This document shows, piece after piece, positions 15,890 through 26,752 of a stretch of 31,319 bases of DNA. Position numbers and translations under genes: made by a program. The notes under the pieces were generated by a model. That model had not been told where the DNA came from and made no database searches. It was given only the letters and a program-made list of their open reading frames with translations. The stretch spans positions 1 through 31,319 of the IMG/VR virus record IMGVR_UViG_3300034092_003133, one strand, 5' to 3'. This DNA is from a virus. Positions within the stretch are counted from its first letter, which is position 1; each line of letters opens with the position of its first letter.

Positions 15890-15900
15890 AAAGGCAAAAA

Positions 15901-16116: not shown

Positions 16117-16128
16117 AAGGTTTATATT

Positions 16129-16332: not shown

Positions 16333-16453
16333 TGCCAAAAGGGCAGGGGCTGCCAAAACGGCAGTCCTCTGTCCTAGCCGATCCTATCGGCTGACAATAA
16401 TGACAGTCAGCCAGCCAAAATGGCAGAGGCGGGCAAAATCTGCCAAAATGGCA
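16333..16453. repeat. Four TGCCA-type palindromes in a 260-bp intergenic region
   Basis: TGCCAAAAGGGCA (16333-16345) and TGCCAAAACGGCA (16351-16363) lie 18 bp apart by start. GCCAAAATGGCA (from 16414) and TGCCAAAATGGCA (16441-16453) follow at the usual near-28-bp spacing. The hairpin pair at 16376-16412 sits between the two sets. Confidence 0.85.
16376..16412 (+). promoter_or_regulatory. Two mutually exclusive hairpins
   Basis: AGCCGAT-CCT-ATCGGCT is a perfect 7-bp stem. Its 3' arm overlaps GGCTGAC, which can instead pair with GTCAGCC at 16406-16412. The two stems cannot form together. A related AGCCGA/TCGGCT hairpin occurs at 18317-18333. Confidence 0.5.
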
Positions 16454-16533
16454 GACAATGCAAATAGCGTACCAAATCGTGCAGAGCAAATCTTGTGCCA
16501 AAAGAAAAATATTTCTCTACGATTTTCTTTTTT

Positions 16534-16561
16534 TGACTTTCAAGTTTCATACTGTAAAATA
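16534..16561 (+). promoter_or_regulatory. Rightward promoter (downstream-CGATA type)
   Basis: TTGACT, 16 bp, TAAAAT. The spacer lacks CGATA, but ACCGATATAAG follows the -10 directly. Confidence 0.75.
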
Positions 16562-16593
16562 CCGATATAAGAGTAAAGAAAGAGAGTAAAAAG

Positions 16594-16725
16594 ATGAATG
16601 ACATCCTTATCGTTTCCGATTGTTGTGGTGCTGAAATGACTCCGGTTCACGCGGAGCATGGGCTTTGTCCCTCTTGCGGTGAACATTGTGAAGCCGATGT
16701 TCAGATTTGGCCGATCCCCCAGTAA
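16594..16725 (+). CDS. 43-aa zinc-ribbon microprotein
   Basis: MNDILIVSDCCGAEMTP...GLCPSCGEHCEADVQIWP. The two Cys knuckles (CC near residues 10-11 and CPSCGEHC near 28-35) suggest a small zinc ribbon. It has its own promoter 33 bp upstream. A CCCCC-AGTAA-GGGGG hairpin (16716-16730) overlaps the stop codon and may stabilise or end the transcript. Role unknown; such ribbons often bind nucleic acid or polymerase. Confidence 0.7.
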   Translation: MNDILIVSDCCGAEMTPVHAEHGLCPSCGEHCEADVQIWPIPQ

Positions 16726-16730
16726 GGGGG

Positions 16731-16759
16731 TTGAATCGGCGGGAAAAAGTTTCTACAAT
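16731..16759 (+). promoter_or_regulatory. Rightward promoter
   Basis: TTGAAT, 17 bp, TACAAT, immediately after the C5/G5 hairpin at the end of the previous gene. Confidence 0.55.
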
Positions 16760-16785
16760 CCATCCATCACCAAGAGGAAAAGAAA

Positions 16786-17115
16786 ATGGCTACCAAGTTT
16801 GCAATCATCGAAGATGCCAAGCGTCAGGCTCGCATGATCTTTCTCGGAATCGCAATCCCTCACCAGCCGTCACTTGCCGATGGTGTCTACGGCCCTATCA
16901 AGTCAGAAAAGATTCTCAAGTTCAATCGCAAGGCGTTGCGTCGTGCTGGTAGTGTCAAGGTCGAAAAGACCGATCCCCGCTATAAGGGGGGTGATGATCT
17001 TATGATTATGAAGATGGGCAAGCCCGGTAGTCGGGAGCGTGTCGAGGCTTTGCGGAGCCAGTATGAAGCCGTCGCCGCTTGCGGTGAGGAAGTATCCCCC
17101 TTCGCGGAGGGGTGA
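16786..17115 (+). CDS. 109-aa basic protein, unknown
   Basis: MATKFAIIEDAKRQARMIFLG... with a Lys/Arg-rich middle (SEKILKFNRKALRRAGSVKVEK). No membrane segment or recognised domain. GAGGAAAAG precedes the ATG. A CCCCT/AGGGG hairpin overlaps the 3' end, followed by a second CCTACC/GGTAGG hairpin (17123-17142). Nucleic-acid binding is possible from charge alone. Confidence 0.65.
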   Translation: MATKFAIIEDAKRQARMIFLGIAIPHQPSLADGVYGPIKSEKILKFNRKALRRAGSVKVEKTDPRYKGGDDLMIMKMGKPGSRERVEALRSQYEAVAACGEEVSPFAEG

Positions 17116-17147
17116 GCATCGGCCTACCCCCACTACGGTAGGGGAGC

Positions 17148-17188
17148 TGCCAAAATGGCAGAGGCCGCGCCCGCCTGCCATAATGGCA
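17148..17188. repeat. TGCCA-N3-TGGCA pair
   Basis: TGCCAAAATGGCA (17148) and TGCCATAATGGCA (17176), starts 28 bp apart with a GC-rich core. TATATTTTTTTT follows the second copy, so it may also act as an intrinsic terminator. Confidence 0.88.
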
Positions 17189-17202
17189 TATATTTTTTTT
17201 GT

Positions 17203-17230
17203 TTGACTTCTAAAGTTTAGATGATAGAAT
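17203..17230 (+). promoter_or_regulatory. Rightward promoter (downstream-CGATA type)
   Basis: TTGACT, 16 bp, TAGAAT, then GTCGATATAAG. No CGATA in the spacer. Confidence 0.8.
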
Positions 17231-17253
17231 GTCGATATAAGAAAGGGTATAAA

Positions 17254-17466
17254 GTGAGCAACCATAACGATTGTGCAACACATTCTCATCTTATGAAGAC
17301 CATAGATTCCATGTGGAGTCTGCGTCGGCGTATAGATGAACTTGAGCAGGAAAATGATAGGCTCAAGAACACCATAGAAATGATTCTTGAGAACATATCT
17401 CGCATAGAGCATGAACTGAATATAAAAATCTTCAGAAAATGTCTCGCGGACGGGATTGACAACTAA
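17254..17466 (+). CDS. 70-aa coiled-coil protein, GTG start
   Basis: The start is GTG 17254, preceded by AAAGGG with 6-nt spacing; an upstream ATG at 17221 is excluded because it lies within the promoter. The C-terminal half (SLRRRIDELEQENDRLKNTIE...) has leucine-zipper-like heptads, so a dimer or trimer is likely. The N-terminus has His/Cys residues (NHNDCATHSH) that could bind metal. It may be a small regulator or adaptor. The next promoter overlaps its stop codon. Confidence 0.65.
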   Translation: MSNHNDCATHSHLMKTIDSMWSLRRRIDELEQENDRLKNTIEMILENISRIEHELNIKIFRKCLADGIDN

Positions 17467-17483
17467 AGTCTAGACTGTAGAAT
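17456..17483 (+). promoter_or_regulatory. Rightward promoter (downstream-CGATA type)
   Basis: TTGACA, 16 bp, TAGAAT, then GTCGATATAAAGG, where AAAGG doubles as a ribosome-binding site. Confidence 0.8.
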
Positions 17484-17508
17484 GTCGATATAAAGGAAAA
17501 GGAAAAAA

Positions 17509-17727
17509 ATGAACGAATACCAGAAAATCTATAAGTTTGATAACGGTTACGGTGCTAGCGTTGTTTCTCACCTTGCCTCATACGGTGGGAAAGATGGCTT
17601 GTTTGAAGTTGCCGTTTTGAAGAATGGCGAAATCTGCTACACTACCAATATCACCAATGATGTGATCGGCTGGTGCGATTTCGACAAGGTGGCCGAGATT
17701 CTGGAAAGAGTTAAGAATCTGTCTTGA
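17509..17727 (+). CDS. 72-aa conserved phage protein, unknown
   Basis: MNEYQKIYKFDNGYGASVVSHLASYGGKDGLFEVAVL...ICYTTNITNDVIGWCDFDKV. I recognise the general pattern (NGYGASVV.H...YGG..GL.E.AVL..G..CY.T.IT.DVIG) from many phage genomes as a small conserved hypothetical; no function is known to me. AAAGG and AAGG precede the ATG. Its stop lies within the next promoter. Confidence 0.78.
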   Translation: MNEYQKIYKFDNGYGASVVSHLASYGGKDGLFEVAVLKNGEICYTTNITNDVIGWCDFDKVAEILERVKNLS

Positions 17728-17751
17728 CAGTGCCGATAAATACTGTACAAT
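17724..17751 (+). promoter_or_regulatory. Rightward promoter (CCGATA spacer type)
   Basis: TTGACA, GTGCCGATAAATACTG (16 bp), TACAAT; overlaps the stop codon of the preceding gene. Confidence 0.82.
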
Positions 17752-17779
17752 AGAAGAATCACCACTAAGGAAAAAGAAA

Positions 17780-18088
17780 ATGAATCACGCCGAAGCGGTT
17801 AAGATGGTTCGTGGCAAGCGTAATAAGACTAGCCGCAAGATTGGTAATAATACCTATGCGGAAATCCTGAACGATAATACTGTGGGTATTAAGTTGCACA
17901 GTACCTACGTTGTAAAGATTCGGGATGATGGTACTTATACCCTTAATAGTGGCGGCTGGCAGACCCTTACCACTAAGGATAGGATTAATCAGTATAGCCC
18001 GGTGAGGGTTTACCAGCGAAAGTTTGAATGGTTTGTTACTATTAATGGTAAAGAGTATCCGTTCATTGATGGTATGGTGGTTTCCTAA
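17780..18088 (+). CDS. 102-aa conserved phage protein (GGW-TLTTKDR type)
   Basis: KIGNNTYAEIL...VGIKLHSTYVVKI...YTLNSGGWQTLTTKDRINQYSP...WFV...YPFIDGM. The ordered motifs 'GNNTYA', 'LH.T.VV', 'GGW.T.TTKDRIN' and the final 'F.DGM' form a conserved hypothetical family I recognise from diverse phages and planktonic viral contigs; its biochemical role is unknown. AAGG precedes the ATG. It is followed by two micro-genes on the same transcript. Confidence 0.78.
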   Translation: MNHAEAVKMVRGKRNKTSRKIGNNTYAEILNDNTVGIKLHSTYVVKIRDDGTYTLNSGGWQTLTTKDRINQYSPVRVYQRKFEWFVTINGKEYPFIDGMVVS

Positions 18089-18102
18089 AGAAAGGGCCAA
18101 GG

Positions 18103-18204
18103 ATGGTCGATATTAACTGGGTACAAATCGGTGTGGGATTTATTGCTGGCATTGTTAGTAGTTATCTTGTTTGTGATCTTGTTTTTCCAATAAGGAAAGA
18201 ATAA
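18103..18204 (+). CDS. 33-aa membrane microprotein
   Basis: MVDINWVQIGVGFIAGIVSSYLVCDLVFPIRKE: one hydrophobic helix (about residues 6-29) and a basic tail. AAAGGG lies 6 nt before the ATG. Its stop overlaps the next ATG (TAATG). Too short for family assignment. Confidence 0.55.
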   Translation: MVDINWVQIGVGFIAGIVSSYLVCDLVFPIRKE

Positions 18205-18281
18205 TGAAAACTTTTGATAAGATCATGTTGACAGCAAGTTTTATTATCGGCTGTGTGGCCGCTTGGGTGGTAAATAGTTAA
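18204..18281 (+). CDS. 25-aa membrane microprotein overlapping the previous one
   Basis: MKTFDKIMLTASFIIGCVAAWVVNS: a single hydrophobic segment. AAGGAAAG precedes the ATG, which overlaps the previous stop. The stop TAA is followed after one base by a TGCCA repeat. The coupled pair may be a membrane complex; function unknown. Confidence 0.5.
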   Translation: MKTFDKIMLTASFIIGCVAAWVVNS

Positions 18282-18282
18282 C

Positions 18283-18394
18283 TGCCAAAATGACATGCGG
18301 GTATCATCTTTGTTTCAGCCGATCTTGTCGGCTTGGGCAAGATGGTATAGCCAGCCAAAATGGCAGGCGCCGCGGCCCCGCTGCCAAAATGGCA
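18283..18394. repeat. TGCCA-type palindromes: one degenerate copy plus a standard pair
   Basis: TGCCAAAATGACA (18283), then an AGCCGA/TCGGCT hairpin (18317-18333), then GCCAAAATGGCA (from 18354) and TGCCAAAATGGCA (18382), a pair at 29-bp start spacing around a GC-rich core. Confidence 0.85.
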
Positions 18395-18447
18395 GCCTAA
18401 GCAAATCCTGTGCCACAAAAAATCTTTTTTTCGCTCAGTTTTTTTAG

Positions 18448-18475
18448 TTGACAAGCCGATATCTTACTGTAGAAT
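18448..18475 (+). promoter_or_regulatory. Rightward promoter (CCGATA spacer type)
   Basis: TTGACA, 16 bp with GCCGATA, TAGAAT; a T-rich tract lies upstream. Confidence 0.82.
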
Positions 18476-18500
18476 CAGCGTATCACCCGGAGAGAAAAAG

Positions 18501-18686
18501 ATGCTCAACTCTTTTGACGATGTGAATACGATTCTTGCACAACTGGCCGAGCAGGGTACGTTGGAGCCGATGATCGAGCCTATTGACGATCCTAACTGTG
18601 AAGTCAACTTTTGGGATTGGGCCGATGTAGTCGGCATTGTTGATGAGTTGGTTCCAGACGAGCCGTTTTGGGCCAACGCTTTCTAG
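18501..18686 (+). CDS. 61-aa acidic protein, unknown
   Basis: Starts at ATG 18501 behind GGAGAG; the frame is open further upstream but the promoter lies there. MLNSFDDVNTILAQLAEQG... then FWDWADVVGIVDELVPDEPFW: strongly acidic, helical, Trp-containing. No family recognised. It is one of several acidic small proteins in this block. Confidence 0.65.
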   Translation: MLNSFDDVNTILAQLAEQGTLEPMIEPIDDPNCEVNFWDWADVVGIVDELVPDEPFWANAF

Positions 18687-18688
18687 GA

Positions 18689-18716
18689 TTGACAAGCCCG
18701 ATTTGTGTGGTAGGAT
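18689..18716 (+). promoter_or_regulatory. Rightward promoter
   Basis: TTGACA, 16 bp beginning AGCCCGAT, TAGGAT. Confidence 0.7.
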
Positions 18717-18734
18717 TAGTGAAAAGGAAACAGT

Positions 18735-18947
18735 ATGAAAACCAAACTACTTGTAGTCAATCTACAAGATCCATCTAAAACAAAATATTGGAATGCAAAA
18801 AATATTGGCGTGTTTATGTTGGGACGTAGATTATCTAACTATAAACTATTTGTAGTAGATCAAACTGGAAATATGAAACCAGTAGTCATTACTAATGCAG
18901 ACATACTATTGATTCAGCAACAAGTTTTAGATATGATGAAAGGATAG
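18735..18947 (+). CDS. 70-aa protein, unknown
   Basis: MKTKLLVVNLQDPSKTKYWNAKNIGVFMLGRRLSNYKLFVVDQ..., a small alpha/beta protein with no catalytic motif. AAAAGGAAA precedes the ATG. Base composition is more AT-rich than its neighbours, closer to the late genes. It is followed at 4 bp by the acidic protein gene. Confidence 0.65.
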   Translation: MKTKLLVVNLQDPSKTKYWNAKNIGVFMLGRRLSNYKLFVVDQTGNMKPVVITNADILLIQQQVLDMMKG

Positions 18948-18951
18948 AACG

Positions 18952-19212
18952 ATGAGTCACCCTGACCCCCTGTTCGATGCCGATAACTCTCATGAGGATG
19001 ATGATATGATTATTGAGCATGATCCTAGTGATATTCTTTTTGCCGAGTATCTGTACGATAACAAAGAGGATATGTATATGGATGATGATACTAACTATGA
19101 TGATTACAATGATTTCTATGATGATAGTATGGATGGTGACCACGATTCCGCGATGGAGTCTGCTGGTTGGGGAACGGATGAAGATTACGGTTACTATGGG
19201 GAGGATTATTGA
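18952..19212 (+). CDS. 86-aa extremely acidic Asp/Tyr-rich protein
   Basis: Nearly half of the residues are Asp, Glu or Tyr, for example DNKEDMYMDDDTNYDDYNDF, and very few are basic. AAAGGA precedes the ATG. Small acidic phage proteins include DNA mimics (Ocr, ArdA, DMP types) and some anti-CRISPRs, so interference with a host DNA-binding enzyme is possible, but there is no homology evidence. A similar acidic protein is encoded at 28290. Its stop overlaps the next start (TGATG). Confidence 0.7.
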   Translation: MSHPDPLFDADNSHEDDDMIIEHDPSDILFAEYLYDNKEDMYMDDDTNYDDYNDFYDDSMDGDHDSAMESAGWGTDEDYGYYGEDY

Positions 19213-19451
19213 TGAGACAGTCTAAGTGTGTTGTAACGGTTACGGATACTTTTGGTGGTGAGCCTAACTATGGTTGGGTTAAGCGTTATGAGTTTGCTCC
19301 GCGTAATGCAGAGTCTCAGCGTAGCGTAGTGCGTCAGGCTAAGTCTCTGGCAAACATGACCGCAGTAAGGGCCGACACTTATGATTATGGGGATAGTTAT
19401 ACTATCAAGCCTCGAGGCTACAACCAAATCATTTTTGTGGATTTTGAGTAA
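19212..19451 (+). CDS. 79-aa protein, unknown
   Basis: MRQSKCVVTVTDTFGGEPNYGWVKRYEF... with the pattern 'V.VTDTFGGE.NY.WV.RYE....S.R..VR.AK...' which I associate with small conserved phage proteins of unknown role. It starts by TGATG overlap with the acidic gene, so the two are translationally coupled and may act together. Confidence 0.7.
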   Translation: MRQSKCVVTVTDTFGGEPNYGWVKRYEFAPRNAESQRSVVRQAKSLANMTAVRADTYDYGDSYTIKPRGYNQIIFVDFE

Positions 19452-19459
19452 AGACGGGC

Positions 19460-19487
19460 TTGACAACGGTCGATAGTAAGGTATACT
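19460..19487 (+). promoter_or_regulatory. Rightward promoter (CGATA spacer type)
   Basis: TTGACA, 16 bp with GTCGATAG, TATACT. Confidence 0.8.
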
Positions 19488-19521
19488 CTAGGAAGATTTC
19501 ACACTACTAAGAAAGGTTTTT

Positions 19522-19929
19522 ATGAACGAGGTTTTCATGTATGGTTTCTTTGGCTTTGCTGCTGTTTCTGCCGTTCTTGGCTTTGCTCTGTTTCACCTGT
19601 ATAGCGGTCTTCACTCTAGTCTGACTTGTGCGTCGGTTGGTGATGTTTATCACTTTGAATATCTTCAGCCTGTTACTGGTACTTATGAACGATTCATGGC
19701 GAAGGTGATTGGTGTTCAGGAGTTTGATGATAACTATCTTGCTCGACTGAATGCGAAGAGTCGTTATCGTCGATATGATAATAACTTTCAGCGTACTAAT
19801 CATCTTGTGACGGCTCAGACGCCGGATGGTAAGATTCGCAACTTCTACGCAGAGCGTACCCGCAATGTGCGTCGGCCCCTCCTTGGTGGGGTTGCATTCA
19901 AGACCGGCTTGGCCAGCCTCCTCTTCTGA
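19522..19929 (+). CDS. 135-aa membrane-anchored protein, unknown
   Basis: An N-terminal hydrophobic helix (about residues 5-27) anchors a soluble part starting SVGDVYHFEYLQPVTGTYERFMAKVIGVQ, a beta-type domain followed by a basic C-terminus (RYDNNFQRTNHLVTAQTPDGKIR...). The VGDVYHF..L.P.TG.Y.R..AKV pattern occurs in small phage membrane proteins of unknown role. AAAGG precedes the ATG. C/G-rich hairpins overlap the 3' end. Confidence 0.7.
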   Translation: MNEVFMYGFFGFAAVSAVLGFALFHLYSGLHSSLTCASVGDVYHFEYLQPVTGTYERFMAKVIGVQEFDDNYLARLNAKSRYRRYDNNFQRTNHLVTAQTPDGKIRNFYAERTRNVRRPLLGGVAFKTGLASLLF

Positions 19930-19948
19930 GGGGGTTGAGTCAAGGCTC

Positions 19949-19990
19949 TGCCAAAATGGCAGGCCGGCCGCGAAATCTGCCATAATAACA
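19949..19990. repeat. TGCCA-N3-TGGCA pair
   Basis: TGCCAAAATGGCA (19949) and TGCCATAATAACA (19978), 29 bp apart. The second copy is degenerate and abuts the next promoter. Confidence 0.85.
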
Positions 19991-19994
19991 CCTA

Positions 19995-20022
19995 TTGACA
20001 ACTGAATAAAACTCGCTACAAT
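19995..20022 (+). promoter_or_regulatory. Rightward promoter of a leaderless gene (downstream-CGATA type)
   Basis: TTGACA, 16 bp, TACAAT, then GTCGAT and the ATG. Confidence 0.8.
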
Positions 20023-20028
20023 GTCGAT

Positions 20029-20184
20029 ATGAATACTATCTACTGCTATGCTGCATTTTCGTGGCGTGTTTTCCAGAATAATCGTTTTGTTGGCTATGTT
20101 GTTGCATTTAGCCAATATGATGCCTATAATAAGGCTCGTGATAAGTATGGCGATAATATTAGATTAGAGAAAATAATCGGTTAG
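20029..20184 (+). CDS. 51-aa protein, predicted leaderless
   Basis: MNTIYCYAAFSWRVFQNNRFVGYVVAF... ends RLEKIIG. The ATG lies 6 nt after the -10 hexamer, so the mRNA should begin at or within a base or two of the start codon. No ribosome-binding site is possible. Aromatic-rich, no known family. The tRNA-Glu gene starts 2 bp past the stop and may be processed from the same transcript. Confidence 0.62.
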   Translation: MNTIYCYAAFSWRVFQNNRFVGYVVAFSQYDAYNKARDKYGDNIRLEKIIG

Positions 20185-20186
20185 TT

Positions 20187-20259
20187 GGCCCCATCGTCTA
20201 GTGGCCTAGGACAACGGATTTTCGTTCCGTTTACCGGGGTTCGAATCCCCGTGGGGTCA
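20187..20259 (+). tRNA. tRNA-Glu (TTC)
   Basis: Acceptor GGCCCCA/TGGGGTC, anticodon loop TTTTCGT, T-arm CCGGGGTTCGAATCCCCG; CCA is not encoded. Confidence 0.93.
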
Positions 20260-20260
20260 T

Positions 20261-20320
20261 TTGTTTCTGCTAATCCTTCGGATTTGAGCGGCGTGGGCGT
20301 AGTCAGCCAAAGTTTGTCCT
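20261..20320 (+). repeat. AATCC-N3-GGATT / AGTCAGC RNA element, copy 1
   Basis: TTTCTGCTAATCC-TTC-GGATT hairpin at 20272-20284, then AGTCAGC at 20301-20307. It follows tRNA-Glu and ends just before the next promoter. Three other copies exist in the window. Confidence 0.7.
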
Positions 20321-20321
20321 A

Positions 20322-20349
20322 TTGACAGTTGATGTTAGTTTGATAGGAT
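20322..20349 (+). promoter_or_regulatory. Rightward promoter of a leaderless gene
   Basis: TTGACA, 16 bp, TAGGAT, then ACGAAC and ATG 20356. Confidence 0.75.
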
Positions 20350-20355
20350 ACGAAC

Positions 20356-20874
20356 ATGTTCACTATTGCCGATTTTGAACGCGCTAGGGCAAGTAGAAAG
20401 ATAGATAGCATTATGGATGCTATTCTATTTACTATTCAAAAGAATGAGTTTGCTTATGCTATGAATCTTTGTGATAGCCATGATAGGGGAGTTTATGCAG
20501 AAAGATTGGTTGGTAATAAGTTGGCCGATCATGGTATGGTTGTAGAGTTTTGTGGGGCCGATAAAGATTATGATCTGTTGATCAATGGGTCTATTCGGAC
20601 AGAAGTTAAACTTGGTACTATTCAGCCTAATGGTAAGAATAATACTAAGTATATTTTTCATAAAATTAAGCCTGAACTTTTTGATGTGATCTTTATGGTC
20701 TTTCTGCATCCTAACGGAGTTGAGATTAAGTGGACAACAGGCGAAATGTTTAATGAATGGAGTGTAGATTATAAGCGTGGTAAAAATGGTTATTCTATTA
20801 CTTTTAATGGTGATATGATTGCTAAAAAGTTAATCTATAATGAGACAATAGATAGTTTTATTAGACTATATTAA
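20356..20874 (+). CDS. PD-(D/E)XK nuclease-like protein, predicted leaderless
   Basis: 172 aa. AERLVGNKL (Glu49), DYDLLING (Asp71/Asp73) and RTEVKLG (Glu83, Lys85) give the spacing and residues of a PD-(D/E)XK core as in restriction endonucleases and repair nucleases; YIFHK and FMVFLHPNGVEIKW fit the next core strands. No methyltransferase gene is adjacent. It could be an endonuclease attacking host or rival DNA, or a repair enzyme. The ATG lies 6 nt after the -10. The stop is followed one base later by a TGCCA repeat. Confidence 0.72.
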   Translation: MFTIADFERARASRKIDSIMDAILFTIQKNEFAYAMNLCDSHDRGVYAERLVGNKLADHGMVVEFCGADKDYDLLINGSIRTEVKLGTIQPNGKNNTKYIFHKIKPELFDVIFMVFLHPNGVEIKWTTGEMFNEWSVDYKRGKNGYSITFNGDMIAKKLIYNETIDSFIRLY

Positions 20875-20875
20875 C

Positions 20876-20917
20876 TGCCAAAGTGGCATATGGGCCGCCC
20901 GGCCTGCCACAATGGCA
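20876..20917. repeat. TGCCA-N3-TGGCA pair
   Basis: TGCCAAAGTGGCA (20876) and TGCCACAATGGCA (20905), 29 bp apart; TACTATTTTTTC follows the second copy. Confidence 0.88.
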
Positions 20918-20942
20918 TACTATTTTTTCTCATTTTTTTCTC

Positions 20943-20971
20943 TTGACAGACCGATAATAGGGGTGTAGAAT
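20943..20971 (+). promoter_or_regulatory. Rightward promoter (CCGATA spacer type)
   Basis: TTGACA, 17 bp with GACCGATA, TAGAAT; drives the tRNA-like gene at 20987. Confidence 0.8.
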
Positions 20972-20986
20972 ACGAGAGTAAGACAT

Positions 20987-21091
20987 GGCGAATGTAGTGT
21001 AATGGTAGCACGGGGAAGTGTCCGAGACACTGACCACAGTGGAGTAGGCTTGCAAAATGCCCATGAGATGGTTCGATTCCATCCTTCGCCC
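20987..21091 (+). tRNA. Aberrant tRNA-like gene, possible tRNA-Cys(GCA) with insertion
   Basis: The ends are tRNA-like: acceptor GGCGAA/TTCGCC (seventh pair T-C mismatched), D-arm GTG-TAATGGTAG-CAC, and perfect T-arm GATGG-TTCGATT-CCATC. The middle is about 30 nt too long. It contains the hairpin AGTGTC-CGA-GACACT, then CCAC/GTGG, then AGGC-TTGCAAA-ATGCCC, whose loop would expose GCA (Cys). It may be a tRNA with an insert before the anticodon arm, a long-variable-arm tRNA reading through CGA, or a tRNA mimic. Confidence 0.45.
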
Positions 21092-21092
21092 C

Positions 21093-21120
21093 TTGACAAA
21101 TAGAAAACAAAATGTATAAT
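21093..21120 (+). promoter_or_regulatory. Rightward promoter of the large non-coding RNA
   Basis: TTGACA, 16 bp, TATAAT, starting 2 bp past the tRNA-like gene. Confidence 0.8.
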
Positions 21121-21126
21121 GAGAGT

Positions 21127-21658
21127 CGCCAGTTCGCTACTGGCTGATCTGTGGGAATGCTGTTAGCCACAGTAAGTAATAACAAAAATCGGCACCATAC
21201 AAGTCTCGTAAGAGACACAAACTTCCGTGGGTCCATGCGACGGGACTAGATTAGGATAAGCCATTACGATAAACCTACGGCTGTTACGCAGCGTGGGGTT
21301 GACAGCGGGCTTATACGCTGTATAGTAGTGCTAATCTATGGGGGATGGCATCCTCACCATGAGTAATACAACCAGTAACCGTTACCAAGAGCCAGACCAG
21401 AGCGGGTCTTATGTGCTAGCAATGCCCGCTTTGCAGGGAGGATTTCCGTGGACGGTTTACACCATGTCCGTAACAGGGTAGCACGGTGAGGCAGAATCGG
21501 GGCGTAAAAGATTCGCTGGTTAAAATACAATCAATCAAAGTGAATAGGAAAGCCGAAGCGTAATGTTGGGAAGCCGGTAGCGGTACATAAGCCGTCCCTG
21601 ACCTATTCATTGACTAGACCATAGATTATTGTGTGCGATCTAGTTTGATTGATTTTTT
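21127..21658 (+). ncRNA. Large highly structured non-coding RNA (about 530 nt)
   Basis: No credible coding frame exists here, but nested stems do. Hairpins: GCCAG/CTGGC (21128/21140), CTGTGG/CCACAG (21149/21167), GTCTC-GTAA-GAGAC (21203), CCTACG/CGTGGG (21274/21292), AGCGGG/CCCGCT (21401/21425), CCGTG/CACGG (21446/21482), GAATC/GATTC (21494/21510). Long-range stems: TAGATTAG/CTAATCTA (21247/21331) enclosing ATAAGCC/GGCTTAT (21256/21308). The 3' domain is closed by AATCAATCAAA/TTTGATTGATT (21529/21644) and holds TGAATAGG/CCTATTCA and ACTAGA/TCTAGT, followed by T6. Promoter at one end and terminator-like T run at the other define the unit. Size and place beside tRNAs resemble GOLLD and ROOL RNAs; homology is not shown. 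Confidence 0.72.
21299..21326 (+). promoter_or_regulatory. Promoter-like sequence inside the large RNA
   Basis: TTGACA, 16 bp, TATAGT. It overlaps the 3' arm of the ATAAGCC/GGCTTAT stem, so it may be an internal promoter for the 3' half or a chance match. Confidence 0.4.
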
Positions 21659-21662
21659 CTTA

Positions 21663-21690
21663 TTGACAAGTCGATAAAAGATAGTATAAT
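21663..21690 (+). promoter_or_regulatory. Rightward promoter (CGATA spacer type)
   Basis: TTGACA, 16 bp with GTCGATAA, TATAAT, directly after the T run that ends the large RNA. Confidence 0.82.
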
Positions 21691-21696
21691 ATACAA

Positions 21697-21848
21697 ACCA
21701 TGGCGGCGAGCCAGCGTCGGACCGGGGGCAGGAAAACCACAAAGCGACCCCGGAACTGGCAATATAAATCTGCTGATAGTTTCCTTACAAAAGGTTGAAC
21801 GGATTAGTACCGAGAGGCTGTTCGTAAAACTATCAGTGGTCGGTACGC
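21697..21848 (+). ncRNA. Structured RNA with pseudoknot (about 150 nt)
   Basis: Stems: GCCAG/CTGGC (21710/21756) enclosing CCGGGG/CCCCGG (21722/21748); CTGATAGTTT/AAACTATCAG (21773/21827), 10 perfect pairs, enclosing GAACGG/CTGTTC (21797/21818). GTACCGA in the inner loop (21807-21813) is complementary to TCGGTAC (21840-21846) beyond the outer stem, which makes a pseudoknot. A 32-codon frame (ATG 21700) is present and very basic, but it runs through the stems, so RNA function is preferred. The RNA ends where the next promoter begins. Confidence 0.65.
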
Positions 21849-21876
21849 TTGACTTTCCTATAACTAATGGTATAAT
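21849..21876 (+). promoter_or_regulatory. Rightward promoter of a leaderless gene
   Basis: TTGACT, 16 bp, TATAAT, then ACGAGT and ATG 21883. Confidence 0.8.
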
Positions 21877-21882
21877 ACGAGT

Positions 21883-22089
21883 ATGAAAGTTACCGCTAAA
21901 CAAAACGCTCGCAAGTGGACTAAAGAACGCTTGAAACGCCATCCCGGTTGTTGGGAAGTTGAGCAGGAAACGAAGTTTGTGCCGTGTTGGCCGGGAGAAG
22001 CGGCCATTATGATTAAGAACACAACCGATGGGTGGAGTGGCTGGTTTCCGATTAAGGACATTGACATTACAAATAACGAGTGTCATTAA
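21883..22089 (+). CDS. 68-aa protein, predicted leaderless, unknown
   Basis: MKVTAKQNARKWTKERLKRHPGCWEVEQETKFVPCWPGEAAIMIKNTTDGWSGWFPIKDID: basic start, Trp-rich, with WPGE and GWSGWFP turns that suggest a small beta domain. The ATG is 6 nt after the -10, so no SD can exist. It is first in a run of ten tightly packed small genes up to 23622. Confidence 0.65.
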   Translation: MKVTAKQNARKWTKERLKRHPGCWEVEQETKFVPCWPGEAAIMIKNTTDGWSGWFPIKDIDITNNECH

Positions 22090-22091
22090 AT

Positions 22092-22340
22092 ATGAACGCA
22101 ATCATTAAACTTGACCAAGACTTCCACCTTTTTAACACTAAGGAAGAGTGGAACTCTTACAAGGATCGTCTTAATCACAGATATGTACACGTTTTGAGCG
22201 ATCCAGAAAAGTTTCCTTGTCTTTCTATTAAAACTCATTATGAGTTTAACAATGCGGGCAGTAGAGATTATCAACACCACTACTTTTTTTATGACTTTAT
22301 CTTAGAGAACGAAGAAGGAAGGGTTAACAATGTACGGTGA
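22092..22340 (+). CDS. 82-aa protein, unknown
   Basis: MNAIIKLDQDFHLFNTKEEWNSYKDRLNHRYVHVLSDPEKFPCLSI... then YQHHYFFYDFIL. An in-frame GTG at 22080 overlaps the previous gene; ATG 22092 is preferred. Tyr/His-rich, with no recognised motif. It overlaps the next gene by 11 bp. Confidence 0.62.
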   Translation: MNAIIKLDQDFHLFNTKEEWNSYKDRLNHRYVHVLSDPEKFPCLSIKTHYEFNNAGSRDYQHHYFFYDFILENEEGRVNNVR

Positions 22341-22509
22341 TCCTAGTTTGTATAAGGCGGCATACGAGAAAAGTCTGATTAAGAGTCGGCTAAAGGCTAT
22401 TAAAGAATCACAAGAAGAACATACTTTGACTCCAGAAGAGGTTAATGCTCTGGACGAAAATAGTATAAAACCATTACCACAAGTAAAATCTCAAAAACTT
22501 CCTACATGA
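22330..22509 (+). CDS. 59-aa helical protein, unknown
   Basis: MYGDPSLYKAAYEKSLIKSRLKAIKESQEEHTLTPEEVNALDENS...: mostly charged helix. GGAAGGG precedes the ATG within the upstream gene. Its stop overlaps the next start (ATGA). Function unknown. Confidence 0.62.
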   Translation: MYGDPSLYKAAYEKSLIKSRLKAIKESQEEHTLTPEEVNALDENSIKPLPQVKSQKLPT

Positions 22510-22700
22510 ACACAATAAAAAAACTTGCAGAATCTAAACTTACTCAAAATCCTAAAGGATGGTGGTCACTGTGGGTTCGTCCTATTGGTACAGAAGAATG
22601 GATTCTGAGTTCTTCTTCTATGAATCATGAAGATATGCAAATAGCGGCCGATTGGTGGAATGGACGAGCAATCGAATGGGAAGTTGAAAAAATAGATTGA
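22506..22700 (+). CDS. 64-aa Trp-rich protein, unknown
   Basis: MNTIKKLAESKLTQNPKGWWSLWVRPIGTEEWIL... then AADWWNGRAIEWEVE. Trp makes up a strikingly large share. Start and preceding stop overlap (ATGA). The next promoter overlaps its stop. Confidence 0.62.
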   Translation: MNTIKKLAESKLTQNPKGWWSLWVRPIGTEEWILSSSSMNHEDMQIAADWWNGRAIEWEVEKID

Positions 22701-22724
22701 CTTGACGATAAAGAATGGTATAAT
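22697..22724 (+). promoter_or_regulatory. Rightward promoter (CGATA spacer type)
   Basis: TTGACT, 16 bp with GACGATAA, TATAAT, overlapping the preceding stop codon. Confidence 0.78.
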
Positions 22725-22743
22725 GGTGGAAAAGGAGAGAATG

Positions 22744-22887
22744 ATGAAATGGCGAAGCGGACAACCTGTTGATATGGTAGAACGATCTATCTACAACTTT
22801 ATAGATAGTCGCTGGTTTCCATACTTCTGTTGGTTACTATGCGGAATAACTGTTGTTGGTTCTTTGATTCATCTTTGGATTAAATAA
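22744..22887 (+). CDS. 47-aa membrane protein
   Basis: Two adjacent ATGs (22741, 22744); the second has the better 6-nt spacing from GGAG. The upstream part of the frame lies in the promoter. MKWRSGQPVDMVERSIYNFIDSRWF is followed by one membrane helix (FCWLLCGITVVGSLIHLWI). Function unknown. Confidence 0.6.
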   Translation: MKWRSGQPVDMVERSIYNFIDSRWFPYFCWLLCGITVVGSLIHLWIK

Positions 22888-22888
22888 T

Positions 22889-23143
22889 ATGGAATGGATT
22901 AGTTTCTTCGGGCCTCGTCGCCCTATCAACGGCCAAAAGGTTTATTACTTTGGCGAGTATATTGGGGTTTGGCAGGGAAGGTATGAGATTCATCGTGATG
23001 ATCCAGTAAGTGAACATATCTTGATTTGTGAAGAAACTCCCGGTATAGTAGATCGTATGGATGCCCCGTGGTGGATGCCATATGAGGGACAACCAAAACC
23101 AAACCGACCAGAAAGTGATTACCCAAAGGATTATCCGTCGTGA
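22889..23143 (+). CDS. 84-aa conserved small phage protein
   Basis: WISFFGPRRPINGQKVYYFGEYIGVWQGRYEI... then DRMDAPWWMPYEGQPKPNRP. The arrangement 'W......P..GQ.V.YY....GVW.G.Y' ending in 'D..D.P.WMP' resembles DUF551-type small phage proteins. Function is unknown. The start follows the preceding stop by one base; its stop overlaps the next GTG start. Confidence 0.65.
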   Translation: MEWISFFGPRRPINGQKVYYFGEYIGVWQGRYEIHRDDPVSEHILICEETPGIVDRMDAPWWMPYEGQPKPNRPESDYPKDYPS

Positions 23144-23298
23144 CAACAGAAGAACAAACAAAGATTATTAGATTATTCACAGAGCCTCATCCAGAATATG
23201 GTATACTAGGTGCTATTACATATACTGGTGGTGAGCGTTATGGTTTCTTTGAAAAAGATAATGTTGTTACAATGATACCCTTATGGATGGTAGAATAA
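23140..23298 (+). CDS. 52-aa protein, GTG start, unknown
   Basis: GTG 23140 overlaps the preceding stop (GTGA), with AAAGGA upstream. MTTEEQTKIIRLFTEPHPEYGILGAITYTGGERYGFFEKDN...: small alpha/beta. Its stop overlaps the next ATG (TAATG). Confidence 0.6.
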   Translation: MTTEEQTKIIRLFTEPHPEYGILGAITYTGGERYGFFEKDNVVTMIPLWMVE

Positions 23299-23510
23299 TG
23301 GCTAAAAACTTTAAAGATTTGATTAGTGCTGACCCTAAGACTATGACTAGGGAACAGGCTATGATTTATGTTATCAACTTTTTTAACTCTCGTATGATGA
23401 CAACGAGCCAAAAACATGTAGATAAGGCCAAAGAGTTAATTGGACTACATGAGATTGGTACCAGCGAACTGGTTAACAAGTATGTGGAGTTAGTTTATGA
23501 AAACTCTTAG
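23298..23510 (+). CDS. 70-aa helical protein, unknown
   Basis: MAKNFKDLISADPKTMTREQAMIYVINFFNSRMMTTSQKHVDKAKELIGLHEIG...: all-helical. Start by TAATG coupling; a longer frame from 23283 overlaps the previous gene. It overlaps the zinc-ribbon gene downstream by 14 bp. Confidence 0.62.
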   Translation: MAKNFKDLISADPKTMTREQAMIYVINFFNSRMMTTSQKHVDKAKELIGLHEIGTSELVNKYVELVYENS

Positions 23511-23622
23511 TGATATTTGCCCTTGTGGGGCATGTGATGTGTTGGTGTGGAAATATGATGATTATGGAATAATCTGGAACTTCTGCCAGCAATGCCATTG
23601 GTGGTATATCGATAACGATTAA
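23497..23622 (+). CDS. 41-aa zinc-ribbon microprotein
   Basis: MKTLSDICPCGACDVLVWKYDDYGIIWNFCQQCHWWYIDND. CPCGAC and CQQC are two Cys knuckles of a zinc ribbon. GGAG lies upstream of the ATG. The stop TAA is followed after one base by a TGCCA repeat. It is the second such microprotein in the window (see 16594). Confidence 0.65.
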   Translation: MKTLSDICPCGACDVLVWKYDDYGIIWNFCQQCHWWYIDND

Positions 23623-23623
23623 C

Positions 23624-23665
23624 TGCCAATACGACAGGCTGGCGGCGAAATCTGCCAAAGTGGCA
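23624..23665. repeat. TGCCA-N3-TGGCA pair
   Basis: Degenerate TGCCAATACGACA (23624) and perfect TGCCAAAGTGGCA (23653), 29 bp apart; TATATTTTTTC follows. Confidence 0.85.
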
Positions 23666-23688
23666 TATATTTTTTCTATAGATTGGTA

Positions 23689-23716
23689 TTGACAGTGCCG
23701 ATACTTATGATATACT
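23689..23716 (+). promoter_or_regulatory. Rightward promoter (CCGATA spacer type)
   Basis: TTGACA, GTGCCGATACTTATGA (16 bp), TATACT; drives the RNA at 23723. Confidence 0.82.
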
Positions 23717-23722
23717 TAGGGA

Positions 23723-23912
23723 GACAATGGACGGGGATAGCCATAATGATATCAAAGAAGGCTATCTGAAATGACAGTCGAGTATGGCAAAAGCCGACAT
23801 TGTTTTTCCTAATCCTACGGATTTGGTGGTCTTGGCGATAGTCAGCGAGAATACCCTATAAGCGGTGGAAGTCAAAAACGCTACTGGACGTTAGACCAGT
23901 ATGGGTATTTTT
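23723..23912 (+). ncRNA. Structured non-coding RNA (about 190 nt) containing repeat element copy 2
   Basis: GATAGCC/GGCTATC (23736/23760) is a perfect 7-bp stem. The AATCC-TAC-GGATT hairpin lies at 23811-23823 with AGTCAGC at 23840-23846. The 3' end is a three-way junction: ATACCC/GGGTAT (23851/23903) enclosing AGCG/CGCT (23861/23879) and CTGG/CCAG (23884/23896), then TTTTT. Promoter and terminator-like end bracket it. Only a 15-codon frame exists, so it is probably not coding. Confidence 0.65.
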
Positions 23913-23918
23913 AAAGTA

Positions 23919-23947
23919 TTGACAACAGGATGCCGATAAGGTATACT
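23919..23947 (+). promoter_or_regulatory. Rightward promoter of a leaderless gene (CCGATA near -10)
   Basis: TTGACA, 17 bp with GCCGATAAGG, TATACT, then 7 nt to ATG 23955. Confidence 0.78.
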
Positions 23948-23954
23948 ATACAGT

Positions 23955-24380
23955 ATGAAACAGAATAAACTACATGGAGAAGTTCGATTTCATTTGAGCA
24001 AAGGGGCTCATTATATGCACTGGCAAATAAAAGTTAAACAGGGTGGAGAAACAGTTGATGTATACTATGTTGACCCCAAAAAATATCAGTTAGAAATGCG
24101 GGGCTGTATATTGTGGAACAGGCCGAATAAGGCTAAACAAGTATTTGAGAATGGTGTGCATGATGTTAGTGGGTGGGTGCGATGTGAAGAAGTTATGCTG
24201 AGGAAGGATTTTTATCCATCTCTACCTATTGACAATCTCGAAAAGTTGTTTTATAATCCTATTCGTGATCCACACTGGCGACGAGAAAGCGACAGTAACG
24301 AGTTCATTTGGGATGGTAGCGAGTATGCTGCTTTACTGACTAACGGAAAACAAGTCTATATTTTGGAAGAAAGGGTTTGA
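23955..24380 (+). CDS. 141-aa conserved phage-type protein, predicted leaderless
   Basis: MKQNKLHGEVRFHLSKGAHYMHWQIKV..., then DVYYVDPKKYQLEMRGC, VRCEEVMLR and YNPIRDPHWRRESD...FIWDG. The pattern 'YNPI..PHW' with an 'F.W.G..Y..L.T.G..VYI' end occurs in a small phage family of unknown role. The ATG lies 7 nt after the -10. The L7/L12-like gene follows at 2 bp. Confidence 0.7.
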   Translation: MKQNKLHGEVRFHLSKGAHYMHWQIKVKQGGETVDVYYVDPKKYQLEMRGCILWNRPNKAKQVFENGVHDVSGWVRCEEVMLRKDFYPSLPIDNLEKLFYNPIRDPHWRRESDSNEFIWDGSEYAALLTNGKQVYILEERV

Positions 24381-24382
24381 AT

Positions 24383-24760
24383 ATGATCAATCTGCAACTG
24401 ACTGTTCGTGAGGCTCTGACGCTTGCTACGGATAGCAGCCTGAGTGGTGATATGTACAATAAGATTGTGAATGCTTTCGAGATTGCATTGGGTGTGAACC
24501 AGAACCGCACCGTGACCATCACTGGTGGCATGACTCTGGATAATCGTATCTACTGTATCAAGGCTATCCGACTTCATAGCGGTTGGGGCCTCAAGGAAGC
24601 CAAGGATTGGAGCGACATTCTGGTTGGTGGCTGGAAGTACGACAAGTTCGTTCCTGCCGCTGCTAATGTTAGGAACAGCATCACTCTCAAAACGCCGGAA
24701 GCGGCTGAGAATCTGCTGCGTGATCTGACCGCTTTGGGTTGTGAGGGACATCTCTCATGA
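24383..24760 (+). CDS. Ribosomal protein L7/L12 C-terminal-like domain protein
   Basis: 125 aa from ATG 24383, preceded by AAAGGG. Residues 56-125 carry the bL12 C-terminal signature: IYCIKAIRLHSGWGLKEAKDWSD (compare the family's 'K..VIK.VR..TGLGLKEAKDLVE') and, after an insert, a final helix-strand TPEAAENLLRDLTALGCEGHLS (family 'A...K..LE..GA.V.L'). In ribosomes this domain recruits translation factors. The N-terminal 50 residues are helical and unlike the L12 dimerisation domain. It may recruit translation GTPases or bind another partner. Phage-encoded bL12-like proteins are known from metagenomes. The TGA stop is followed one base later by a repeat. Confidence 0.75.
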   Translation: MINLQLTVREALTLATDSSLSGDMYNKIVNAFEIALGVNQNRTVTITGGMTLDNRIYCIKAIRLHSGWGLKEAKDWSDILVGGWKYDKFVPAAANVRNSITLKTPEAAENLLRDLTALGCEGHLS

Positions 24761-24761
24761 C

Positions 24762-24803
24762 TGCCAAAGCGGCAGCTTGCGGGGCCGACCTGCCAAAATG
24801 GCA
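24762..24803. repeat. TGCCA-N3-TGGCA pair
   Basis: TGCCAAAGCGGCA (24762) and TGCCAAAATGGCA (24791), 29 bp apart, GC-rich core. Confidence 0.88.
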
Positions 24804-24827
24804 CTAAAAAATATTGACGAAGGGGGT

Positions 24828-24855
24828 TTGACAGTGCCGATAACTAGGGTATACT
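24828..24855 (+). promoter_or_regulatory. Rightward promoter (CCGATA spacer type)
   Basis: TTGACA, GTGCCGATAACTAGGG (16 bp), TATACT. Confidence 0.82.
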
Positions 24856-24861
24856 GATAGC

Positions 24862-24911
24862 ATCACACGACATGACGCTGACCGATTCCAAAACGTAAAA
24901 GTTCGGATCAG
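24862..24911 (+). other. Short transcribed leader with hairpin between two promoters
   Basis: CTGACCGA (24878) pairs with TCGG-A-TCAG (24903) with one bulged A, closing a 17-nt A-rich loop. It lies between promoters at 24828 and 24915, so it is either a 5' leader element or a very small RNA. Confidence 0.4.
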
Positions 24912-24914
24912 CAC

Positions 24915-24943
24915 TTGACACTGTGATACTCGTTTGGTATGAT
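24915..24943 (+). promoter_or_regulatory. Rightward promoter
   Basis: TTGACA, 17 bp, TATGAT; no CGATA. Confidence 0.65.
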
Positions 24944-24983
24944 TGTTTTAGTTGGTTCACTTTACTACTTTGGAGGTTTTATC

Positions 24984-25235
24984 ATGCAGAAGTTTGCTTT
25001 CAGTGTCGATGTTGTTGCTACGGAACTTGATCGTGATTCGGTCGCTGAGTCCATTCGTGAGTGTCTTGAGGGTTGTCTGCCGAGCGACGTTCATGCGTCG
25101 GTCAAGGCTGGCGAAGTCAAGAGTTTTTCGGAGCAGGGTTATAAGGTGTGGCGAGCCAGGGTTACTGGCGTGACTGCCGAGGCTGCGGGTGACGCGGCCA
25201 ACCCTAAGACCAAGAAGGAAACGGTCGAAGTCTGA
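24984..25235 (+). CDS. 83-aa protein, unknown
   Basis: ATG 24984 is preceded by GGAGG, the best SD in the block; the upstream in-frame ATG at 24939 overlaps the -10 and cannot be used. MQKFAFSVDVVATELDRDSVAESIRECLEGCLP... then VWRARVTGVTAEAAGDAAN: a small alpha/beta protein with two close Cys. No family recognised. The next promoter follows at 3 bp. Confidence 0.68.
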   Translation: MQKFAFSVDVVATELDRDSVAESIRECLEGCLPSDVHASVKAGEVKSFSEQGYKVWRARVTGVTAEAAGDAANPKTKKETVEV

Positions 25236-25237
25236 CC

Positions 25238-25265
25238 TTGACAATAGCCGTCAGGCCCGTAGAAT
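25238..25265 (+). promoter_or_regulatory. Rightward promoter of tRNA-Arg
   Basis: TTGACA, 16 bp with TAGCCGT, TAGAAT; the tRNA starts 29 bp downstream. Confidence 0.78.
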
Positions 25266-25293
25266 AATCTGCGGGTCTGGCGGTTTTTCTTTT

Positions 25294-25365
25294 GGCCCCA
25301 TAGTTCAATGGATAGAACAGTTGCCTTCTAAGCATCTAATAGAGGTTCGATTCCTCTTGGGGCTA
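25294..25365 (+). tRNA. tRNA-Arg (TCT)
   Basis: Acceptor GGCCCCA/TGGGGCT (first pair G-T), anticodon loop CTTCTAA, T-arm AGAGG-TTCGATT-CCTCT; one U-U mismatch in the anticodon stem; CCA not encoded. It reads AGA, common in the late genes. Confidence 0.9.
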
Positions 25366-25371
25366 TTATCC

Positions 25372-25413
25372 TGCCAATATGGCGGGAACCGCGGCCGCCC
25401 TGCCAAGATGGCA
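25372..25413. repeat. TGCCA-N3-TGGCA pair
   Basis: TGCCAATATGGCG (25372) and TGCCAAGATGGCA (25401), 29 bp apart around ACCGCGGCCGCC. Confidence 0.87.
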
Positions 25414-25438
25414 GACAAGATTTTCTGGATTTTTTCTC

Positions 25439-25466
25439 TTGACAGTGACGATACCTAATGTAGAAT
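25439..25466 (+). promoter_or_regulatory. Rightward promoter (CGATA spacer type)
   Basis: TTGACA, GTGACGATACCTAATG (16 bp), TAGAAT. Confidence 0.82.
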
Positions 25467-25487
25467 CACTAGCACAGGAGACATAAA

Positions 25488-26192
25488 ATGAAAGTCGCAG
25501 ACGGTAACGATAAACTTGGCAAGGGTTGTTTGGTTGTTTCGCGTCCCGTTGGGGATACTTGCCCGCCTAGTTGTGCATTTCTTGGTGACGGTTGCTATGC
25601 CGAGCAAACCGAGAAGATGTATCCTAATGTTCGCCCTGCTGGTATGCAGAATCTTATCACGGAAAAGAATCGTATTCGTGCGATGATTCTGGAAGCCATT
25701 CGCAAGGGTAAGTCTATTCGCTGGCATGAGCGTGGCGATTGGTTTCTCAACGGTGAGTTGGATACTAACTATGTTGAGAATGTAATGTGGGCTTGTGAGA
25801 GTATCGTGTCGGAAGGTACGGCATTGCCCGATATGTGGTTTTATACGCATATCTACGATAGTCGCCTTGTGGCATTTGAGAAGTATATGAATGTATATGC
25901 TAGCGTCCACAATGATTCCGACATGAATGAGGCAAAGGCTCAAGGGTTCAAACTGTTCGCGTGGTGCGATAGCGACCAGAAGATTGCCCCGAAGCGTCCG
26001 CGTAGCAAGGCTAAGGCCGAGGCTTGGCGTAAGACTCTGCCGAAACTTGTAGTATTGAACGGAGCAAAGTTTGTCACTTGCCCCGAAATCCGTCGTGGTC
26101 GTGGCGTTGTTACTTGCACACCGACTAAAGGCAGTGTATCATGTGAACTGTGCGTCAAGGGTTTGGCTAACGTGTTGTTTCCCTCACACTAG
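25488..26192 (+). CDS. Gp88-like cysteine-rich phage protein
   Basis: 234 aa. KLGKGCLVVSRPVGDTCPPSC...GCYAEQ gives Cys14, 25, 29 and 36. Then RWHERGDWFLNGELD and MWFYTHI follow, and a C-terminal Cys cluster (TCTPTKGSVSCELCVKG). This order matches the Gp88 family of phage proteins ('SRP.G.TCP..C.F...CYA', 'R.HE.GDF'), which are probably metal-binding and of unknown function. An AGGAGA SD and own promoter support it. The C-terminal Cys set suggests a second zinc or iron-sulfur site. Confidence 0.75.
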   Translation: MKVADGNDKLGKGCLVVSRPVGDTCPPSCAFLGDGCYAEQTEKMYPNVRPAGMQNLITEKNRIRAMILEAIRKGKSIRWHERGDWFLNGELDTNYVENVMWACESIVSEGTALPDMWFYTHIYDSRLVAFEKYMNVYASVHNDSDMNEAKAQGFKLFAWCDSDQKIAPKRPRSKAKAEAWRKTLPKLVVLNGAKFVTCPEIRRGRGVVTCTPTKGSVSCELCVKGLANVLFPSH

Positions 26193-26205
26193 TGGAGTTT
26201 GACGA

Positions 26206-26427
26206 ATGAAAACTTTCAGTATTGTATGTATGACACTTGTAGATTTTTGCGACCATGTTGGGTGGGACTACTTTGATACATTAGACTGTCTAAATCATAG
26301 TGATATTAGTTTTGGTACTAATGATGATACATTAGTTCTTCCAGAAACATTGGCTGATATTTGTGAGAGGGGAGACTTGCCTACTCATATTCTGCCAGAA
26401 AAACTTTACATTAGCATAGGGAGTTGA
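26206..26427 (+). CDS. 73-aa acidic protein, unknown
   Basis: MKTFSIVCMTLVDFCDHVGWDYFDTLDCLNHSDISFGTNDDTLVLPETLADICERGD...: Asp- and Cys-rich. GGAG lies upstream of the ATG. More AT-rich than the preceding gene. No family recognised. Shares the transcript with 25488. Confidence 0.63.
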   Translation: MKTFSIVCMTLVDFCDHVGWDYFDTLDCLNHSDISFGTNDDTLVLPETLADICERGDLPTHILPEKLYISIGS

Positions 26428-26429
26428 TA

Positions 26430-26672: not shown

Positions 26673-26673
26673 C

Positions 26674-26715: not shown

Positions 26716-26752
26716 GTTAAAGTTTTGGTCGTGGCATGACGATAAATAGTTT

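Follow-up and report, generated by a model that had tools for sequence, protein, structure and literature searches.

A structured non-coding RNA of apparently exchangeable domains encoded beside tRNA-like elements in a phage genome

GOLLD and ROOL are phage RNAs encoded near tRNA islands (PMC12286853). GOLLD RNAs, many of which exceed 800 nt, have conserved and variable regions, and a variable linker inside the cage sometimes carries phage tRNAs; ROOL is likewise phage-borne and has a complex structure with pseudoknots (PMC12286853). Phage T4 encodes two further RNAs of unknown function, rnaC and rnaD (PMC9697503). These correspond to the stable RNA species 1 and 2, and rnaC (species 1) is a 139-nt RNA within the tRNA operon. 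To our knowledge, none of these large RNAs that phages encode close to tRNA genes (GOLLD, ROOL, and T4 rnaC/rnaD) has yet been assigned a function, and we know of no spacer and no modular exchange in rnaC/rnaD. Tandem pseudoknotted RNA units are also a feature of ToxI, the RNA of type III toxin-antitoxin systems.

The window, meaning the whole stretch of DNA analyzed here, is a 31,319-base IMG/VR virus record whose terminase is only ~25% identical to the terminases of isolated phages. An initial annotation had marked in it an RNA of ~530 nt lying between a promoter and a T run, with no coding frame of note, and our analysis confirms a structured non-coding transcription unit at 21127–21658. 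It is bounded by a sigma-70 promoter, from whose position the start was placed near 21127, and by the 11-bp stem that had been described as closing the 3ʹ domain before T6. The feature is larger than first given, with a tRNA-like unit upstream (20943–21092) and a further RNA unit downstream (21663–21848), and the module order in the window is T / promoter / P-A-B-Q / promoter / R-O / promoter (Table 1). A coding explanation was rejected: across 51 homologous regions running from A to B, sense stop-free stretches covered 0.48 of the region, against 0.49 in shuffled sequence, and antisense ones 0.60 against 0.54, and gap lengths in the alignment of module A were mostly no multiple of three. Folding energy alone (MFE −168.4 for 21127–21658 against a shuffled mean of −157.4, z −1.76, with 6 of 100 shuffles equal or better) was rejected as proof of structure. 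The annotation's claim of far more order than chance thus fails by folding energy and is instead borne out by covariation in module A.

Table 1. Positions of modules, helices, spacers, and promoters in the window.
Feature	Position	Strand	Evidence or remark
Promoter of tRNA-like unit T, TTGACA-17-TAGAAT	20943..20971	+	11/12
Module T, tRNA body with replaced anticodon arm	20987..21092	+	Rfam tRNA, homologues, arm swaps
Promoter of main RNA, TTGACA-16-TATAAT	21093..21120	+	12/12 sigma-70 match
5ʹ hairpin GCCAG/CTGGC	21128..21144	+	MFE
Module P, H-type pseudoknot then hairpin 21203-21216	21145..21216	+	homologue in L089
Module A, cloverleaf	21226..21361	+	covariation; model R1 156.9 bits
A acceptor, 5 bp	21226-21230/21357-21361	+	
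A D hairpin	21231-21234/21243-21246	+	
A distal arm	21249-21254/21331-21336	+	anticodon position
A pseudoknot, through hairpin 21302-21307/21316-21321	21256-21262:21308-21314	+	
A T hairpin	21341-21345/21351-21355	+	
Spacer TAATACAA between A and B	21364..21371	+	slot with 0-3 extra modules in relatives
Module B, junction domain	21371..21520	+	alignment of homologues; two exchangeable arms
B P1 ACCAG/CTGGT	21371-21375/21516-21520	+	
B P2	21377-21382/21452-21457	+	
B P5, loop GGGGCGUAAAA	21494-21498/21510-21514	+	
Spacer AATACAA after B	21524..21530	+	
Module Q, 3ʹ domain closed by 11-bp stem, then T6 (likely transcript end)	21529..21658	+	MFE
11-bp closing stem AATCAATCAAA/TTTGATTGATT	21529-21539/21644-21654	+	leads into T6 at 21653-21658
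Promoter of next RNA unit	21663..21690	+	12/12
Module R, GCCAG..CTGGC-closed	21699..21767	+	seen in window only
Module O	21770..21846	+	directly 3ʹ of B in L088, L099, L100, L104, L219, and others

Homologous loci, here called arrays, were first retrieved through neighboring proteins, and more were found via conserved-word scans of IMG/VR, which yielded 59 distinct arrays after duplicate removal and a 60th in L223, on contigs of up to 260 kb. The best segments of diverged copies matched the window at 95% over 191 nt (L081), 92% (L028), 90% (L002), 82% (L021), and 73% (L003). A covariance model of module A matched the window, L002, L003, L021, L028/L031, L048, L081, and the edge of L039, with no further convincing match in the 1.23 Mb searched. 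Using blastn with three arrays against INPHARED phages, we obtained no match except one 23-nt hit (E 0.2); exact-pattern scans of GTDB genomes returned none, and no homologue of module Q was found by exact 19-mer search. A pattern for the body of T yielded nine new loci, among which A and B are present in L223 only. L225, L226, L228, L230, and L231 carry apparently ordinary tRNAs, L227 and L229 repeat L225 and L228, respectively, and L224 contains a tRNA-like element with a long insert and neither A nor B. Many matches to the pattern ACAAACWTCCGTGGGTC (the “TGAAGCCAGAGTAATCC...” loci) were set aside as apparently unrelated sequence.

Among Rfam covariance models, only tRNA (20988–21090) matched window positions 20870–21900, even at E ≤ 10, with GOLLD and ROOL unmatched; in 12 array loci searched at E ≤ 5, GOLLD, ROOL, and other families were likewise unmatched, tRNA being the exception. 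We therefore rejected every Rfam family save tRNA as the identity of the RNA. Such arrays are also undescribed in the open-access literature searched. The RNA family is probably a new class, as the annotation had allowed. GOLLD and ROOL, put forward at that stage as the nearest analogues, do appear to be among the closest, together with T4 rnaC/rnaD, though the likeness to GOLLD and ROOL lies in setting and layout and would not extend to kinship. Like GOLLD, the arrays are large structured phage RNAs near tRNA genes that combine constant domains with a variable part; unlike GOLLD, they give no covariance-model match, their constant portion comprises two junction domains of roughly 140 nt each, and their variable parts are discrete, recurrent, and exchangeable modules with a standard spacer. 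With ROOL they share a phage-borne location near tRNAs and the presence of pseudoknots, but not a match to its Rfam model. The T4 RNAs are comparable as small stable RNAs of a phage tRNA operon, but have no sequence match to any array module: nhmmer with module seeds found no match in rnaC/rnaD, and the module A model (R1), run on the T4 locus, gave no meaningful match there (4.8 bits). ToxI offers an analogy only, in its tandem pseudoknotted units, whereas array units are longer and different from each other. As a separate observation, rnaC (L232:1409–1547) has at its end a perfect tRNA T-arm, CCGGG-UUCGAAU-CCCGG, and large stems elsewhere, so it may also be tRNA-like with replaced arms.

Comparison of the arrays indicates, almost certainly, a non-coding RNA composed of exchangeable closed domains, with cloverleaf cores, an invariant A...B order, and AATACAA joints, that is carried by a group of large uncultured phages. 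The large structured RNA of the annotation is accordingly structured, non-coding, and placed beside tRNA-like genes, but it is a member of a modular family rather than a single monolithic RNA. Each RNA is a string of separately closed domains, and most joints between them are short and contain AATACAA or a variant. A TACAA-like word is present in 110 of 135 short joints, and the density of AATACAA is 4.67 per kb in arrays compared with 0.18 per kb per strand overall, a 26-fold enrichment. Modules A and B are both present in all but a few arrays, and wherever both occur A comes before B, never the reverse. Between, before, and after them are placed zero to four domains from ~26 other families, a number that depends on manual delimitation, resulting in ~40 different module orders among the 59 distinct arrays. 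The slot 5ʹ of A contains L, H, T, P, W, Y, U, X, I, and others; that between A and B contains C, D, E, F, G, J, K, N, S, V, a second A, or the tRNA-like insert of L134; and that 3ʹ of B contains O, Z, or, in the window, Q. The two ends of a variable module pair with each other at a mean of −9.1 kcal/mol, better than the −5.5 kcal/mol obtained when ends of different modules are combined (permutation p < 5e-5). A promoter lies 5ʹ of 51 of 57 arrays, and B is followed by a T-run and new promoter, by a ribosome binding site and one of several ORFs, or by module O. Some modules are found both as separate transcription units and within one array (window, L028, L099, and L104), which fits independent function.

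Covariation was examined in 40 non-redundant sequences of module A. In these, 91.5% of cells were paired, and 21 of 37 pairs showed two-sided change. Compensatory two-sided cells numbered 118, against 37.7 in shuffles that ignore relatedness and for a structure that was hand-defined and partly chosen from the same sequences; none of 500 shuffles reached 118. Two safeguards apply here, namely a slide control, in which moving the partner by 1–3 columns left at most 33 compensatory cells, and the coupling of D and T loops across exchanged arms. RNAalifold recovered the cloverleaf without guidance from a separate MAFFT L-INS-i alignment of A, and in the automatic run on the MAFFT alignment A1, gaps caused the distal arm to be missed. 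In the pseudoknot, alignment columns 46–52 pair with columns 141–147, the loop of helix 135–140/149–154, and both helices covary, with columns 50/143 being C-G in 23 sequences and G-C in 17.

The loops of A fall into matched types: AUGC or AAGC in the D loop occurs with UNGCR in the T loop (39 sequences), UAGC with UGCGA (11), UUGC or CUGC with UUGGA (3), and UGAU with UUUGA (1), and in every A for which both were typed, the type of the T loop follows from that of the D loop. Distal arms a1, a2, and a3, on the other hand, each occur on both UNGCR and UGCGA bodies. Recombination has thus split arm from body in these sequences but not D loop from T loop, which implies a putative tRNA-like elbow in A, deduced from loop coupling rather than from a three-dimensional structure. 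As the Rfam tRNA model leaves A unmatched in window positions 20870–21900 and in the 12 array loci, the tRNA likeness of A rests on its shape and on this coupling. The L216 copy of A is roughly tRNA-sized, its distal arm being a short hairpin. Module B gave weaker covariation support than A, since P1 and P5 are nearly invariant across relatives, P2 changes mostly via G-U, and its two arms are swapped as blocks that differ in sequence, the majority still forming hairpins. The CTGG at the end of B leads into a T-run in many arrays and, in others, into AATACAA and a ribosome binding site.

The tRNA-like neighbor reported upstream is real. Module T in the window scores 29.5 bits against the Rfam tRNA model (gathering threshold 29), the anticodon arm carrying an insert of 44 nt, and its homologues score 30–32 bits and module Z 37.8 bits. 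T has an acceptor, a D-arm with AATGGTA, and a T-loop with TTCGATT, with other stems in the place of the anticodon arm, and recurs 5ʹ of A in relatives. Its distal arms are of at least three unrelated types (window/L099, L028, and L088). ARAGORN did not call T in the window, where the arm is replaced and no decoding anticodon loop was found; the L088 version was called as tRNA-Glu. By inspection, module F and the L134 insert also have acceptor pairing and a T-arm, and an ordinary-looking tRNA lies between T and A in L202 and directly after B in L215. The likeness to tRNA consists in T and Z scoring as tRNA and in the cloverleaf of A, with its coupling of D and T loops. The differences are long arms or pseudoknots in place of the anticodon arm, no match of A to the tRNA model, and, for the window element, no encoded CCA. 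Module Y (e.g., L112:13410–13557) appears tRNA-like by eye, with a long T-loop insertion (GATGGTCAAG ... CGAATCCATC flanked by GGGAC/GTCCC). The pseudoknot of module P joins 21149–21154/21167–21172 with 21158–21162/21190–21194, reading UGCUG:CGGCA in the window and GCGAG:CUCGC in L089, its only homologue.

We then considered the function of the arrays in their genomic context. The array site is conserved, with one upstream gene family in 38 of 59 loci and one downstream family in 42 of 59. The products of neighboring genes are uncharacterized, and the genes directly after B differ among phages. No toxin gene was recognized among the neighbors listed, few of which were compared with families. 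As neighboring genes differ and modules occur as separate units, the array RNA would act in trans rather than on one downstream gene. Our best explanation as a whole, a structured modular RNA with a trans-acting, tRNA-mimic role, we regard as evenly poised between right and wrong; the tRNA-mimic or decoy mechanism itself is offered tentatively, with the balance leaning against it. By this mechanism, tRNA-like bodies would provide a stable, host-recognizable chassis for swappable distal arms and domains, each of which would serve as a ligand or decoy that binds or misleads a host or competitor factor. Domain exchange would be driven by a host-phage arms race, and the A/U-rich joints might be cut, releasing domains. 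Ordinary phage recombination would, however, also give module exchange, and a leader role also fits the one-third or so of arrays that run into an ORF. Should the mimic reading be true, phages would develop RNA-based countermeasures against host factors through the swapping of whole folded domains, as they do with genes. It is also conceivable, though we consider it somewhat unlikely, that the arrays are a recombining phage library of RNA domains, with more than 25 domain families and the AATACAA spacer, in which tRNA bodies act as a “tRNA scaffold” presenting different structured arms. Such a library, if true, would be the RNA counterpart of exchangeable anti-defence gene islands. The naturally shuffled domains amount to a built-in genetic experiment, informative on domain partners, arms swapped on one body, and invariant bases, and probing and cryo-EM could start directly from the covarying cloverleaf, the pseudoknot, and the two constant domains.

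An RNA-only assembly that packages or organizes cargo in the manner of GOLLD and ROOL is unlikely, but it fits several aspects of the layout. A and B would assemble, and the variable slot would be a cargo linker that includes tRNAs or tRNA-like RNAs; as in GOLLD, constant parts flank a variable slot, here with tRNA-like inserts (F and the L134 insert), and the ordinary-looking tRNA of L202 sits just 5ʹ of A. A and B are, however, only ~140–150 nt each, compared with the >800 nt of many GOLLD RNAs (PMC12286853), the exchange of arms within them would disturb intermolecular contacts, and the Rfam models are unmatched. Distinctly unlikely, too, is a precursor cut at the AATACAA joints into small stable RNAs such as T4 rnaC/rnaD, where the array would merely co-express separate RNAs. 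Closed modules with A/U-rich joints, the occurrence of these modules as separate units elsewhere, and the precedent of rnaC, a 139-nt RNA of a tRNA operon with a perfect T-arm end and unknown function (PMC9697503), all agree with this, but the fixed order of A before B in every array with both argues for joint action. We consider it improbable that the RNA is a cis-acting leader, riboswitch-like or mRNA-stabilizing. In about one-third of arrays (L002, L003, L021, L092, L096, and others), B is indeed followed by AATACAA, a Shine-Dalgarno sequence, and ATG, but the downstream gene varies from phage to phage, many arrays finish with a T-run ahead of a new promoter (in the window, after module Q), and neither a conserved expression platform nor a constant downstream gene is present. 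That the structure arose by chance, or that the RNA is really coding sequence, has next to no likelihood: folding energy alone is non-significant, but the compensatory changes (controlled by shuffling and sliding), the non-coding indels, and the 60 arrays all speak against it.

Finally, we note other elements in and around the arrays. Module U (AGATGAGGGCCGCTGGCAGAATGATATCAAAG..) is a conserved RNA element of ~80 nt (L088, L089, L096, L098, L099, L126, L206, L223, and others), which as a rule occurs by itself, often with a promoter of its own and mostly 1–5 kb from the array in ~30 loci, and is an array module in L098 and L223. The window gene at 20356–20874, which precedes the array in 15 of 59 loci, has a weak match to phrog_6927, no Pfam match, and a D..E.K-like pattern (DYDLLINGSIRTEVKLG), and is possibly a PD-(D/E)XK nuclease. 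The ORF upstream of the array in L096 ends in ..PEPSSVVMLCLGLAAFFIIKKFFKK, which by eye resembles a PEP-CTERM sorting signal and could hint at an exosortase host. A hairpin, TGCCA-NNN-TGGCA with up to one mismatch, occurs at 27 sites in window positions 15285–30253, with 0.73 expected. These hairpins (e.g., 20876–20888 and 20905–20917) often come in pairs spaced ~29 nt, the middle being GGCCGGCC-like, and are apparently intergenic, possibly representing a terminator or regulatory repeat.
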